Source: Thermoplasmata archaeon (GTDB lineage Archaea > Thermoplasmatota > Thermoplasmata > Methanomassiliicoccales > Methanomethylophilaceae). From it: a stretch of DNA of 43,745 nt. Within the stretch, counting starts at the first letter, position 1, and each line of letters begins with the position of its first letter. Under the pieces are notes generated by a model. That model was not told where the DNA came from, made no database searches, and worked only from the letters and a program-made list of their open reading frames with translations. Location: NCBI GenBank assembly GCA_015063235.1, contig SUSW01000037.1, forward strand, positions 1-43,745, given 5' to 3'. Positions 12,387 through 16,227 of the stretch are shown in pieces. Both the position numbers and the translations under genes were made by a program.

Positions 12387-13169
12387 TCAGCGCATCACGT
12401 TCAATTTCTCGAGTTCATCGAGGATCCTCTTCCTCAGAGCCGTGAATTCAGGCGCAGAACGGTCGCGGGGCCTGGGCCAATCCAGGTTGATGATCTCTTT
12501 GATCTTGGAGGGACGCGGCGAGAGCACGACCACACGGTCTGAAAGGAACAGGGCTTCGTCCACTGAGTGGGTGATGAATATGATCGTCGTTCCCGTCTTA
12601 TCCAGGATCTTGACCAGTTGAGCCTGCATGATGTTCCTAGTCTGGGCGTCAAGAGCTCCGAACGGTTCATCCATCAGGATTACATCGGGGTTGTTGATGA
12701 GCGCACGTGCGATTCCCACACGCTGCTTCATCCCTCCGGAAAGCTCGTGTATCCTTGCATTCTTGAACTCGCCAAGGCCTACAAGCTCGATGTACTCATC
12801 GGCCTTCTGGTGGCGTTCCTCCTTGGGGACCCCTGCGACCTCCAGTCCGAACTCCACGTTCCTCCTTACGGATCTCCATGGGAACAGGGCGAAATCCTGG
12901 AACACCATACCTCTGTCGGGTCCGGGCTCCTTGCATTCCTTGCCTGCTATGATGATGGATCCCTCGGTGGGTTCTAGCAGTCCTGCTATCATACGGAGGA
13001 TGGTGGTCTTACCGCAACCGGAGGGTCCGATTATGGAGACAAGCTCTCCTTTCTTGACAGTGAGGTCTATCCTGTCGATGGCGACGGTTTCGACCTCATC
13101 TTTCCTGTAGACCTTACGGATCCCATCGATGACGATGAAATCTTCTCCTTCCTTGACTTCGTTGCTCAT
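12387..13169 (-). CDS. ABC importer ATPase, SsuB/TauB/NrtD type
   Basis: This is the energising subunit of a nitrate/sulfonate/taurine-type importer, 260 aa. Walker A GPSGCGKTT lies near residue 43. A Q-loop (VFQDFALFPW), signature LSGGMKQRVGIARAL, Walker B VILMDEPFGALD and switch His (FITHSVDEA) are all intact, so it should be a competent ATPase. It is the last gene of the three-gene operon with the permease (ATGA overlap) and the unusual binding protein. The substrate cannot be assigned from this subunit. Family members move sulfonates, nitrate, bicarbonate or pyrimidine-like compounds. Confidence 0.92.
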   Translation of the reverse strand: MSNEVKEGEDFIVIDGIRKVYRKDEVETVAIDRIDLTVKKGELVSIIGPSGCGKTTILRMIAGLLEPTEGSIIIAGKECKEPGPDRGMVFQDFALFPWRSVRRNVEFGLEVAGVPKEERHQKADEYIELVGLGEFKNARIHELSGGMKQRVGIARALINNPDVILMDEPFGALDAQTRNIMQAQLVKILDKTGTTIIFITHSVDEALFLSDRVVVLSPRPSKIKEIINLDWPRPRDRSAPEFTALRKRILDELEKLNVMR

Positions 13170-13972
13170 TCGATCCCCATCCTCTTCGAGATTCTCTTCT
13201 GAATGTATTCAGAGAGACTGGTGGTCATTATACCCAGGAACGCGATGATCACAAGGATGGCGAATACGCTGGGCCACAGACTGTTCTGACACATGCTCTG
13301 CAGGCAGTAACCCACTCCGATGGATACGGGCGAGTACATCTCTGCGGCGACGATACACATCCATCCCACTCCCAGACCGACCTTGATACCGTTCATCAGG
13401 TACGGGACGGCGCTTGGGATCATGACCTTCAGGAAGACCTGTGTCTTATTGGCCCCGAGGGTCCTGGCGGCATCGACCAGGGTCTGGTCGATCTTCTTCA
13501 CTCCGAAGATGATGTTGGTCAGCAGAGGGAAGAATATACCTATGAACACGACTAGGATAGGTCCGACGCCGTAGCTGATTCCGTAGATGAACACAGGTGC
13601 CCATGCGATGGGTGCGATAGGCCTAAGCACCTCGATCATGGGGGTGACGAATGTGTTCAGCGTCTTGGAGTATCCAAGGAACAATCCCAGGGGGATAGCC
13701 ACGATGAGCGCCAGCAGGAATCCCTGGATGAACAGGCTCAGCGACGACCATATGATGCTTCCTGAAGACTGGTGCGAATAACCGTTTTCCAGGAAGTCTA
13801 TGAGTGCTTCGAAAGTCTCCGCGGGCGTGGGGAACACATTGGTGTTTGCCAATATGGAAAGGATCCACCACAGTTCCACGAACATTATCAGAGACAGAAT
13901 GACAATCAAGACCGTCCTGCCGAATCTGTGATACTTGTTGTTCTCATCGAAATTGAATGTCTCGAATGTCAT
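13166..13972 (-). CDS. ABC importer permease, SsuC/TauC type
   Basis: 268 aa with about six membrane segments. The first, near residues 18-38, precedes a periplasmic-side segment. The EAA loop for docking the ATPase is visible as LVDAARTLGANKTQVFLKVMIPSAVPYLMNGIK-like sequence around residues 165-195. The family segment RPIAPIAWAPVFI is present. The start overlaps the stop of the binding-protein gene (ATGA) and the stop overlaps the ATPase start, so all three are translated from one message. The protein probably forms a homodimer in the membrane. Confidence 0.92.
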   Translation of the reverse strand: MTFETFNFDENNKYHRFGRTVLIVILSLIMFVELWWILSILANTNVFPTPAETFEALIDFLENGYSHQSSGSIIWSSLSLFIQGFLLALIVAIPLGLFLGYSKTLNTFVTPMIEVLRPIAPIAWAPVFIYGISYGVGPILVVFIGIFFPLLTNIIFGVKKIDQTLVDAARTLGANKTQVFLKVMIPSAVPYLMNGIKVGLGVGWMCIVAAEMYSPVSIGVGYCLQSMCQNSLWPSVFAILVIIAFLGIMTTSLSEYIQKRISKRMGIE

Positions 13973-16227
13973 TCCTCTCCCTCCACAAGTTTGATCTTCT
14001 TAGCGTTGATCGTTGCGCTGGTGATAGGCGGAGCTCCCATGAATCCGAGATCGGACTGGCCGCCGAGGAGATCCTGAGCGACGCCTCCTCCGTTGGGGAG
14101 GGTCCTGATGGTGACCTCGAGTCCGTATTCCTCGAAGTATCCGAGGGTCTTCGCGACCTGGACTGCTATTTGGTGGATATCCCCGTCGATGGCAGCCAGG
14201 GTGATGCTGCTCTTGTCACCGGAGTATCCATTCGCCGTAAGTGCCTTCACGAGGTAGCTGTTATCGATGAATGCCGATGCCAGATCGTCATATGATGCAA
14301 AACCCAGATCAGCCAGTTTGACCTTGATTCCGCCAAGATCCGTAAGGTCCTGGGCAAGCGTTCCGATGTCATCGACCAGCTTGTCAAGTTGCGCTGTGCC
14401 GGCTGTGTCGCTGTATGCATATATGACGCCATAGAGCGCCTCTTTGATGATCTCATCGGTCAGACCGTGGATGTTCTCCTTACAGATAGCGACAAGATTA
14501 GCAAATTTCGTGCCACTCGGATCGTCCTTGGCTTCGTTGATGTAGTCTACTGCCTTGATGTATGCTGCGAGGAATCTCACCGTCTCATCCGAGTGGTTCT
14601 TGAGGTAATTTTCGTATCCTGCTATAAGACAGCATGTGTGACCGGGGAACAGTACGTTGGTGGTCGCCATTTCTTTGAAATAGTCGCTGGACAGGATGTA
14701 GTGGTATTGAGGTTCCCAAAGGATTCCACCGTCAAGGATCGAGCTGTTGTTGATGGCATCGGAATAGGTTTTGATGCTATCCACGAAGTAAACGGTGTCC
14801 GGCTCTGGATGTGATTCGCTGTATTTCTCGAACTTCATCCCGAACGTGTTCTGTACCAGTTCCATGAGCTGGACATGTTGTATGGTGCTGGATCCAGGGG
14901 TTCCGAAGACCTTTCCACCCCACATCTCCTTATGGTACTCGATATTGTCTCCGTTGATCGTCACGAAATCATCTGCGTTGTATTTCGATGCGATGTATAT
15001 CCCCGATCCGTCTGTGTTGACCCTTGAGATGAGGGATACAGCCTTCTCCACATGGGTGGCGACGTCATGCTTGACGATGGCTTTGGCGTTGATCGTTGCG
15101 CTGGTGATAGGTGGAGCTCCCATGAATCCGAGGTCGGACTGGCCTCCGAGGATATCCAGTGAAACAGCTCCTCCGTTGGGCAGGGCCCTGATGTTGATAC
15201 TGAGTCCGTATTCCTCGCAGTATCCGAGGGTCTTCGCGACCTGGACTGCTATTTGGTGGATGTCTCCGTCGATGGCTGCGACATTGATCGTGGATTTGGA
15301 GCCCGAGTTGGCTGTGTAGGAGAGAGCATTCCTAAGGTAGCTGTCGTCTATGAATGCCTTTGAGAACTCCTCATAAGAATCGAATCCGAGTTCAGAGATC
15401 TTGTACTTGATTCCTCCGAGATCGGTCAGATTCTCCGCCAGGGAGGCGATGTCTGATTCTAGATCCGAGAGTGAGGAGCTGTTGGGCTTGTCGCTGTATT
15501 TGTACACCACGCCATCTAGGGCCTCTTTGATGACTTCATCGCTCAGTCCCTTGATGTTGTCTTTACAGATCTGGACGAGTTTAGCATACTCTTCTCCTGA
15601 AGGATTGTCTTTGGCCTCGTTGATGTAGTCTACTGCCTTGATGTATGCTGCGAGGAATCTTATGGTCTCATCCGCATGACTGTCCAGATAATCCTGGTAT
15701 CCTGCGATCAGACAGCATGTGTGCCCGGGGAACAGTACGTTAGTGGTCACCATTCCATCGTAGTAACCGCTGGACAGAATGTAATGATACTGAGGCTCCC
15801 ACAGGATTCCGCCGTCGAGAATGTCCCTGTTGTTGATGGCCATCGTATAGTTGTTGACATTGTCGACAAAATAAACTGTGTTGGGATTGAGGGGTTTCGT
15901 ATTGCTGTATTTATCGAACTCCAATCCCATCTTGTTTGTCACAATATCCATGAGCTGGACATGCTGTATGGTGCTGGCTCCGGGGGTTCCGAAGACCTTT
16001 CCGCCCCACATCTCTTTGTTGAATGTTATGGATTTATCACTGTTGATGGTGATGAAATCGTCAGCGTCATATTCTGATGCCAAATAGATTCCGGATCCAT
16101 CCGTATTCACCCTTGCGATAAGAGAAAGCTCCTTTTCAACCTCTCCTGAGGCAGAACTGGTTTCCTTGTTTTCAAGGGCGAAGATAGCTCCGGCAGCTAT
16201 CAATTCTATCAGAACGATAATTATCAC
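13969..16227 (-). CDS. Tandem, circularly permuted substrate-binding protein of the SsuA/NMT1 type
   Basis: 752 aa. Residues 1-29 are a hydrophobic signal or anchor segment. Residues 30-390 and 391-751 are two copies of a 361-residue unit, in register with no gaps. In each unit the part that normally forms the second portion of such proteins (SRVNTDGSGIY, WGGKVFGTPG, LWEPQYHYIL, FPGHTCCLIAGY) comes first. The part that normally opens the protein (AAIDGDIHQIAVQVAKTLGY, LGGQSDLGFMGAPPITSA) comes last, at about 312-391 and 673-752. A complete normally ordered protein therefore sits in the middle, flanked by complementary halves. The only usual start codon is GTG at 16227, with no good ribosome binding site. 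An in-frame ATT at 16245 has GGAAGTG 5 nt before it and would add a basic n-region (IRTKT). Feeds the permease and ATPase encoded downstream. Substrate unknown. Confidence 0.88.
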   Translation of the reverse strand: MIIIVLIELIAAGAIFALENKETSSASGEVEKELSLIARVNTDGSGIYLASEYDADDFITINSDKSITFNKEMWGGKVFGTPGASTIQHVQLMDIVTNKMGLEFDKYSNTKPLNPNTVYFVDNVNNYTMAINNRDILDGGILWEPQYHYILSSGYYDGMVTTNVLFPGHTCCLIAGYQDYLDSHADETIRFLAAYIKAVDYINEAKDNPSGEEYAKLVQICKDNIKGLSDEVIKEALDGVVYKYSDKPNSSSLSDLESDIASLAENLTDLGGIKYKISELGFDSYEEFSKAFIDDSYLRNALSYTANSGSKSTINVAAIDGDIHQIAVQVAKTLGYCEEYGLSINIRALPNGGAVSLDILGGQSDLGFMGAPPITSATINAKAIVKHDVATHVEKAVSLISRVNTDGSGIYIASKYNADDFVTINGDNIEYHKEMWGGKVFGTPGSSTIQHVQLMELVQNTFGMKFEKYSESHPEPDTVYFVDSIKTYSDAINNSSILDGGILWEPQYHYILSSDYFKEMATTNVLFPGHTCCLIAGYENYLKNHSDETVRFLAAYIKAVDYINEAKDDPSGTKFANLVAICKENIHGLTDEIIKEALYGVIYAYSDTAGTAQLDKLVDDIGTLAQDLTDLGGIKVKLADLGFASYDDLASAFIDNSYLVKALTANGYSGDKSSITLAAIDGDIHQIAVQVAKTLGYFEEYGLEVTIRTLPNGGGVAQDLLGGQSDLGFMGAPPITSATINAKKIKLVEGEE
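13975..15057 (-). repeat. Second copy of the 1083-bp in-frame tandem repeat
   Basis: This copy encodes residues 391-751 of the binding protein. Matching points are exactly 1083 bp apart, for example 14003 and 15086, and 14535 and 15618. From 14535 and 15618 onward more than 40 consecutive bases are identical. Confidence 0.9.
15058..16140 (-). repeat. First copy of the 1083-bp in-frame tandem repeat
   Basis: This copy encodes residues 30-390 of the binding protein. Similarity to the neighbouring copy is clear at both DNA and protein level and has patches of near-identity, suggesting recent duplication or ongoing gene conversion. Confidence 0.9.

Follow-up and report, generated by a model that had tools for sequence, protein, structure and literature searches.

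The binding-protein gene in the window (the whole stretch of 43,745 nucleotides analysed) is a long-lived tandem of the kind that 'permutation by duplication' predicts. In the explanation that we consider highly probable, an NMT1-type domain was serially re-cut, its F-K-A unit was duplicated, and the product forms two consecutive permuted domains on one helix, each with its own cleft and both serving one permease-ATPase pair, such tandems being intermediates. Here A is the canonical N-terminal part, F the canonical second part and K the canonical C-terminal part; B stands for F-K. Layout, relatives, minimum order changes, motif conservation, purifying selection and identical tracts were taken from sequence, and the fold and the beads arrangement are predicted only.

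The open reading frame (13969-16227, minus strand) has a GTG start and encodes 752 aa. Direct repeats with a start-to-start spacing of 1083 span much of the gene:

14000-14225 and 15083-15308: repeat pair, 85% identical, spacing 1083
14519-14798 and 15602-15881: repeat pair, 80% identical, spacing 1083
14406-14503 and 15489-15586: repeat pair, 78% identical, spacing 1083
14818-14931 and 15904-16017: repeat pair, 83% identical, offset 1086

The protein comprises two units of ~361 aa with 69% protein identity to each other, as the initial annotation had recognised. Its unit length and 1083 bp spacing were borne out, but the units are not strictly gapless, because the last block is offset by 1086. 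In each unit the canonical N-terminal ~75 residues come last, and the layout is as follows:

16162..16227, minus strand: hydrophobic anchor/signal segment, residues 1-22, from sequence; predicted helix 2-22 with low pLDDT; same place in three orthologues
15763..16128, minus strand: F1, canonical second part of unit 1, residues 34-155 (segment blast and doubled-profile mapping)
15310..15762, minus strand: K1, canonical C-terminal part of unit 1, residues 156-306 (segment blast and doubled-profile mapping)
15712..15723, minus strand: unit 1 motif H169-x-C171-C172, invariant in a 46-row alignment
15079..15303, minus strand: A1, canonical N-terminal part at the end of unit 1, residues 309-383 (Pfam matches and relatives)
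15253..15264, minus strand: unit 1 motif D322-x-H324-Q325, at least 90% conserved in the 46-row alignment
15043..15078, minus strand: A1-F2 linker, residues 384-395, running from the C-tail of unit 1 into the N-linker of unit 2
14680..15042, minus strand: F2, unit 2, residues 396-516 (segment blast and doubled-profile mapping)
14227..14679, minus strand: K2, unit 2, residues 517-667 (segment blast and doubled-profile mapping)
14629..14640, minus strand: unit 2 motif H530-x-C532-C533, equivalent columns kept
13996..14220, minus strand: A2, unit 2, residues 670-744 (Pfam matches and mapping)
14170..14181, minus strand: unit 2 motif D683-x-H685-Q686, equivalent columns kept

The permuted order proposed for both units was confirmed with Pfam. 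Positions 22-69 of the NMT1_2 profile matched residues 690-738 and positions 7-64 of the NMT1 profile matched residues 689-746, so that the N-terminal part of the profiles lies at the C-terminal end and the canonical colinear NMT1/SsuA-type order is not followed. The protein exceeded both gathering cut-offs (NMT1_2, 59.5 versus 24.7 bits; NMT1, 46.5 versus 20.5 bits) and did not reach that of NCBIfam TIGR01728 SsuA_fam (44.6 versus 163.5 bits). When the sequences of solved structures were searched with the middle part in canonical order (residues 305-673), nothing matched up to E 10. The alternation of half-B and half-A was right as an order, B-A-B-A, but 'half' overstates A, which takes up about 75/361 residues.

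Two importer genes adjoin the gene:

13166..13972, minus strand: ABC permease (BPD_transp_1) that shares an overlap with the binding-protein gene's end; best NCBIfam SaoP/TauC/NtrB, below cut-off
12387..13169, minus strand: ABC ATPase; best NCBIfam SaoA/NtrCD/TauB, below cut-off

Both are of the group found in SsuABC/TauABC-like importers. As part of the preferred explanation, the window protein is the predicted anchored substrate-binding protein of a putative importer of that type. The permease was found downstream in 4/4 two-unit F-K-A loci and in 187/199 loci overall.

Relatives were collected from genome scans (102 and 147 genomes at E <= 0.001; 400 at E <= 1e-6); one sample was limited to the best 80 of 301 relatives that two patterns based on cut III members had retrieved. 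Cut III is the order F''-K-A-F'. Dropped rows were duplicates (L002-L005 and L111), partial matches (L106-L108), those with <250 aligned columns (e.g. L109) and cores identical to or inside another. L211, a broken match over two frames, was left out of the order classes. The 199 chains left after removal of duplicates comprised 90 F-K-A, 81 cut III, 14 canonical, 7 K-A-F and 2 cut IV forms, four F-K-A tandems and one cut III tandem; these are loci fetched, not all matches or frequencies, and L099 (F-K-A ended by a contig edge) and L170 (cut III with a diverged end) were labelled by eye. Five terminus positions, the canonical one and cuts I, II, III and IV, occur in one ABC-operon protein of archaea and a few bacteria. 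The order of Pfam matches was permuted in the F-K-A and cut III forms. For example, in the single-unit relative L007 residues 350-408 matched NMT1 profile positions 6-64 and residues 48-230 matched NMT1_2 positions 72-240, whereas the match of the canonical L039 was colinear (profile 22-238 of 252).

The search for orthologues recovered mostly single-unit B-A relatives (90/102 classified loci), and the same two-unit layout in G059, G055 and G064, at 71, 68 and 64% identity to the window protein. The single N-terminal membrane anchor that had been proposed occupies the same place in these three proteins. Their hydrophobic N-terminus runs directly into the B part, and no A part is missing upstream.

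Both units of the window gene keep the conserved motifs and, judged from sequence, differ under purifying selection. At 29 conserved columns each window unit deviates twice, while 95 single-unit rows have a median of 2 deviations and a maximum of 12. The dN/dS between units was 0.24, 0.15 and 0.17 in the 3/4 genes where it was computable (dS 0.8-1.9). Between the units of the window gene, runs of 44 and 43 nt are identical, and in G055 such runs reach 83 nt. It is possible, but rather unlikely, that the tandem is a neutral leftover in which a single unit suffices and its partner is heading for trimming, a state compatible with the beads fold. The independent cut III tandem L124 resembles it, since its contiguous unit 1 has lost 13/29 conserved positions (one a gap) and is seemingly being trimmed, with unit 2 differing at 3/29; unit 2 of G064 has also changed Q to G in the D-x-H-Q motif. 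However, both units keep their motifs in the window gene and two other orthologues, dN/dS is 0.15-0.24, and the tandem has been kept in four species at 64-71% identity.

The window protein is most likely a two-site, beads-on-a-string receptor. Single B-A units are the common form of the family; B-A must therefore fold alone, and each unit would be a complete permuted domain. The AlphaFold2 (AF2) model (pLDDT 92.3) does not pack A1 on F2-K2 and lacks the closed ring that, in a structure prediction, was to count as support for the initial proposal. Its best structural matches (VIA) were NMT1-type proteins. The rigid VIA alignments fell mainly on residues 393-667 and few on 29-306, and began on the targets past the targets' own N-terminal part. 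Five rows (9uai, 9u9z_C, 9uak, 8wm7_C and 2x26_B) extended from F2 into A2, the ranges giving first and last residue only. Among the Foldseek rows with E <= 0.001, 12/14 had an rmsd of 28-32 A over 319-532 columns and the remaining two 4.9 and 9.7 A; the high values may arise where a sequential alignment crosses two separate domains, Foldseek printing no ranges.

It was also proposed that the two ends pair into a second site, giving a ring or domain-swapped receptor around a normally ordered middle protein (about residues 312-672). Such a bracelet, with a canonical middle domain A1-F2-K2 and a second domain from F1-K1 with A2, as has been suggested for Pot II inhibitors (PMC2259423, in the part available), appears improbable. 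Cyclic order permits it, the frame spanning about residues 309-667 is indeed in normal order, and A1 and F2 are contiguous as in canonical relatives. A folded middle domain was nevertheless unsupported. Single F-K-A relatives exist, the K-A linkers of tandems are no longer than those of single units, and L124 decays unit by unit, which speaks against a ring because a ring would mix units. The Foldseek and VIA alignments of the model likewise speak against one domain formed by the N- and C-terminal segments, with the caveat that in the alignment behind the AF2 model every one of the 20 single F-K-A rows fell on unit 1 and 18 rows (7 K-A-F and 11 cut III) spanned A1-F2. A neutral four-row alignment of the two-unit orthologues alone gave a poor model (pLDDT 56.7). 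Two binding sites are probable, in the beads rather than the ring arrangement; two-site function is putative, as would be any gain in capture rate.

Junctions that once were termini tend to be longer, with exceptions, as compared in the sequences. The A-F junction measured 11-12 residues in 9/9 outgroup canonical chains and a median of 11 (range 11-22) in cut III, against 23-24 in 4/4 F-K-A tandems (the A1-F2 linker, between anchors), 20-22 in five K-A-F chains, 17 in the other two and 22 in L039. The first K-A-F pair, at 17 residues, falls within the cut III range. The F'-F'' junction was 41-46 in the nine outgroup chains, 51 in L116, L119 and L144, and 51-69 in F-K-A. Orders without such a junction were left out (A-F, 32 single F-K-A rows; F'-F'', 5 cut III rows). 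The inter-unit junction of L124 is 45 residues, within the outgroup range, and scars are therefore not obligatory. K-A linkers measured 33-34 in tandems (n=8) and a median of 35 in single F-K-A units (33-45, n=89).

Trees were constructed for the binding protein (82/204 units, chosen to cover all orders; L099 and L170 absent) and for the permease, a gene that is not permuted (75/77 loci of the same units). Root and direction of change were our choice. In the binding-protein tree F-K-A is nested within cut III, K-A-F arises twice, and the F-K-A tandems form one clade (100/99). Its 11 label changes include about 8 of order, the rest being tandem labels (L124's units do not group as sisters). The permease tree has the same nesting and 10 label changes (8 and two tandems), and a FastTree tree has 14, with L099 counted as canonical and L170 as cut IV. 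AU tests gave p 1.5e-60 for K-A-F forced into one clade (groups set by order), 6e-9 for the canonical chains without L039 as a group and 1.5e-5 for those without L039 and L167. For L167, a separate origin depends on a long branch. Both trees agree on about eight order changes and two tandem duplications; among these changes, one order arose twice and the canonical order was apparently regained more than once. In the permease tree the canonical L039, with its A-F scar, groups as sister with the K-A-F protein L035 (95/90); in the binding-protein tree it stands beside L033, branching without resolution, and its F-K junction (24) bears no scar. To account for its placement, either a tandem that persisted and was trimmed in parallel or recombination has to be assumed.

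There is little likelihood that the orders are old paralogues and the repeated re-cutting only differential loss. Paralogues do exist, since G057 and G067 each combine a K-A-F member with a diverged F-K-A one (L034/L041 and L035/L042), and several genomes have two family members. Against this, the nesting recurs in the permease tree, and at nearly all loci, as given above, the permease lies downstream of the binding-protein gene, whereas neither L041 nor L042 has a permease of this type on its own strand within 2.5 kb, and both belong to a different F-K-A branch. Order changes may also have come about by other mechanisms such as fission-fusion. One-end-trimmed chains (about 1.2-1.8 units), which duplication and trimming predict, were not recognised in the profile scans. 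An assembly artefact or a fusion of neighbouring genes is close to inconceivable despite the draft state of the window genome (54 contigs, 87% complete): the units are 69% identical rather than copies, and mis-assembly is countered by the layout shared among four species, the window included, with G055 assembled as one contig.

Under the preferred explanation, serial re-cutting of an ancestral canonical domain (A-F-K) would have yielded cut III first and, by a second re-cut within that lineage, F-K-A. The F-K-A unit, from juxtamembrane linker to C-tail, would then have been tandemly duplicated inside the ORF in an ancestor of the four species. The product would fold as (F1-K1-A1)(F2-K2-A2) on one membrane helix with a ligand cleft in each domain, this two-domain receptor would feed one permease-ATPase pair, and gene conversion may keep the units alike. 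Such tandems would be intermediates, and relatives with new termini (K-A-F, A-F-K) probably came from them by trimming; trimming and the direction of change are what we infer. The family contains two elements of permutation by duplication, namely tandem duplicates (the window clade and L124) and permuted descendants with new matching ends (cuts I, II, III and IV). More tentatively, termini might 'walk' around the fold by in-frame tandem duplication and trimming through at least five tether positions, with stable tandems as working two-site receptors and the anchor move itself selected, e.g. via reach or docking on the permease.

The NMT1-type binding proteins SsuA, TauA, NrtA and CmpA have the canonical order and one unit, unlike the window protein with A last, two units and a score below the SsuA_fam cut-off. 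One Foldseek row was 6h30, the GlnPQ SBD1-SBD2 tandem. GlnPQ likewise has two binding domains in one chain for one importer, but these are fused to the permease in canonical order, while the window domains are permuted on a separate single-helix anchor and the permease is a separate ORF (13166-13972). To our knowledge, the literature treats natural circular permutants mostly as isolated pairs. TpMglB-2 (Tp0684; 'Type Ic / Cluster Bc') is, like the window protein, naturally permuted and membrane-tethered, with the first three strands of its N lobe at the C-terminus; as far as the available part of PMC4990184 describes it, it has a Type I (Cluster B) glucose-binding fold, no tandem, and one permuted topology that also occurs in Gram-positive bacteria and other treponemes. 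In the tandem repeats of potato type II inhibitors, either the repeat unit or a cyclically shifted version of it can make up the domain, and the ends may form a bracelet (PMC2259423, same part); these inhibitors are cysteine-rich, of about 50 residues, and differ from the window protein, where a bracelet is unsupported. Tandem intermediates and permuted descendants are also described for DNA methyltransferases and swaposin (available part of PMC3320104), whereas in the window family a single orthologous operon protein shows four cuts beside the canonical order, along with two surviving tandems and scars at junctions. The accessible portion of the open-licence literature yielded no account of a permuted NMT1-type binding protein, most subscription papers lying outside that scope.

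Because one orthologous operon protein combines canonical and several permuted orders, apparent returns, two independent tandems and scars, permutation by duplication becomes testable step by step. These natural permutants also make it possible to study whether transport depends on where a binding protein is tethered. Annotation by profiles leaves such proteins truncated or in the wrong order. The available parts of two papers on Methanomassiliicoccales (PMC10804542 and PMC4153887) name no ligand for this system. Corrinoid-methyltransferase genes adjoin cut III members in a few loci, a hint at a methylated compound as ligand.

The features to which the analysis refers are as follows.
13969-16227, minus strand: two-unit binding protein, 752-aa ORF, with an N-terminal hydrophobic segment followed by two repeat units of about 361 aa
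16405-17615, minus strand: CobW-type GTPase, then an overlapping ORF, upstream of the tandem gene
L124:2131-4323 (= L180:2825-5017), genome G144: separate tandem of 731 aa in cut III form, which arose independently

Direct repeats within the binding-protein ORF recur at a distance of 1083 bp, except for a single block whose spacing is 1086 bp. The two units in permuted order described in the initial annotation were borne out, as was the 1083-bp spacing, but not strict gaplessness. With A, F and K denoting the N-terminal (about 75 residues), second and C-terminal segments of the canonical NMT1-type domain, the protein reads anchor-F1-K1-A1-F2-K2-A2. This order was independently confirmed by Pfam, because the N-terminal profile positions of NMT1_2 and NMT1 matched the C-terminal end of the protein. 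The binding-protein and permease genes overlap by 4 bases, as do the permease and ATPase genes. The best NCBIfam matches of the permease (SaoP/TauC/NtrB) and the ATPase (SaoA/NtrCD/TauB) were all below cut-off. The CobW-type GTPase and its overlapping ORF were also present upstream of the tandem at L052:1258-2897 and L053:1373-2904. In both the window and L052 the pair ends in a tail very rich in His, Asp and Cys.

At E ≤ 0.001, 93 of the 102 family genomes examined and 134 of the 147 from the order contained relatives; at E ≤ 1e-6, so did 115 of 400 genomes drawn from the class. The proposed search for one- and two-unit orthologues recovered the two-unit form in four genomes, one of them on a single contig; the nearest single-unit relatives (L006, L007, L008 and L045) were all F-K-A, that is, one permuted domain. 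A different contig of the window genome carries a second copy, a single F-K-A unit that has diverged (L040:3073-4365); neither a permease nor an ATPase of this type lies on the same strand within 2.5 kb of it. L041, L042 and L043 are likewise diverged F-K-A binding proteins, and for all four the 2.5 kb to each side showed no same-strand permease of this type.

A canonical middle domain (A1-F2-K2) with the chain ends paired into a ring had been suggested. Structure prediction, proposed as a check, gave an AF2 model (pLDDT 92.3, pTM 0.66) that spoke against the ring, although it rests on a 46-row alignment in which unit 1 took the 20 single F-K-A rows and 18 other rows spanned A1-F2, and a neutral alignment gave no usable model. 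Rigid structural alignments of the model fell mainly on F2-K2 (393-667), with a few on F1-K1, and did not cover the canonical-order middle with A1. Among 14 Foldseek rows with E ≤ 0.001, 12 had an rmsd of 28-32 Å and the others 4.9 and 9.7 Å; Foldseek prints no ranges, and the high-rmsd rows presumably span A1-F2-K2. Sequence agrees with two consecutive permuted domains: K-A linkers in tandems (33-34 residues) match those of single units (median 35), and decay in L124 falls mostly in contiguous unit 1. That unit lost 13 of 29 conserved positions, distributed over F'', K, A and F', including most binding-site residues (HPGS for HPCC, DINQ for DLHQ); unit 2 retains these and differs at 3 of 29. 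Model and sequence would both agree with two beads rather than a ring. The observation of permuted units stands and reaches beyond its first reading; the ring is not supported.

The point of the cycle at which each chain starts was read from a doubled profile, two copies joined end to end. Once two labels had been corrected, the 199 chains comprised 90 F-K-A (cut I), 81 F''-K-A-F' (cut III), 14 canonical, 7 K-A-F (cut II), 2 cut IV and 5 tandems, 4 of them F-K-A and 1 cut III; these are loci fetched, not frequencies. The window's family (102 loci) held 90 F-K-A, 7 K-A-F, 4 tandems and 1 canonical chain. Cut III occurred in other Methanomassiliicoccales and Thermoplasmata, Archaeoglobus, Geoglobus, Methanoperedens, Thermincola and others, and the rare cut IV in two Theionarchaea records. 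Canonical order was found in records named Borrarchaeum, Hermodarchaeota, Sigynarchaeum, Thorarchaeota and Lokiarchaeota, which are Asgard archaea, in Bathyarchaeota and Actinomycetota, and in scattered chains (L039, L116, L119, L144, L167). The split Pfam match extends from F-K-A to cut III, where L212, L220 and L226 match NMT1_2 positions 149-249 near the N-terminus and NMT1 positions 5-119 at the C-terminus. Judged by sequence, this is one orthologous operon protein with five terminus positions, canonical and four cuts.

Trees were rooted with canonical outgroups. Canonical order, being that of the NMT1 profile, was assumed to be ancestral; since the root is a choice, the direction of change is only inferred. 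In the binding-protein tree (82 rows), F-K-A was nested within cut III and K-A-F lay twice within F-K-A; canonical L116, L119 and L144 fell within cut III, and canonical L039 beside K-A-F. About 8 of 11 label changes were changes of order. The adjacent permease is not permuted, and its tree reproduced this nesting; of its 10 label changes, 8 concerned order and 2 were tandems. AU tests rejected single origins of K-A-F and of the canonical form.

Junctions that were formerly termini tend to be longer. The A-F junction spans 11-12 residues in all 9 canonical chains of the outgroup, and its median in cut III is 11 (range 11-22); it has 23-24 in the four F-K-A tandems, 22 in L039, and 20-22 in five K-A-F chains (17 in the other two). 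The F'-F'' junction has 41-46 in the outgroup, 47 in L167, 51 in L116, L119 and L144, and 51-69 in F-K-A. However, the inter-unit junction of L124 has 45 residues without extension, and the L039 F-K junction bears no scar. By eye, the extra stretches of K-A-F and L039 are alike and resemble an F-K-A C-tail plus N-linker, as if both had been trimmed from one tandem; contrary to such trimming, no one-end-trimmed chain was recognised in the profile scans.

Circular permutation is known in kind, and a permuted type I binding protein has been described (PMC4990184). No description of re-cutting on this scale within a single orthologous operon protein that also has extant tandems was found in the open-licence literature searched, which most subscription papers lie outside.

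Each window unit keeps 27 of 29 conserved columns, including H-x-C-C and D-x-H-Q. H-x-C-C (model columns 138-141), which belongs to the canonical C-terminal part, hardly varies across the family (96-100% over aligned units) and may serve as a metal site, disulfide or ligand contact. The units diverge under purifying selection, with dN/dS of 0.24, 0.15 and 0.17 in the three of four two-unit genes that allowed the calculation, and identical tracts between units, strongest in G055, suggest gene conversion. Because motifs are kept in both units, together with this selection and these tracts, we propose a putative two-site receptor on one tether, which would be comparable in effect to GlnPQ-type importers, which have tandem binding domains.

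Matches to URO-D (5 of 199 loci) and MtrH (6 of 199) were found by BLAST in a few bacterial and archaeal loci, beside cut III members, and no more than hint at methylated substrates. In Thermincola (L215:1-8230), a cut III binding protein lies near corrinoid-methyltransferase-like genes, named by Pfam; matches to these neighbours (URO-D, MtrH, RACo-like, CMD) occurred, not all in each, at L217, L220, L222, L224, L226 and L231. An HTH_3 regulator flanks 68 of 199 loci (e.g. L213:3438-3920, L230:3216-3740). Of the 81 cut III loci at least 54 have it, whereas the matches listed (60 of 68) include one F-K-A locus (L071).
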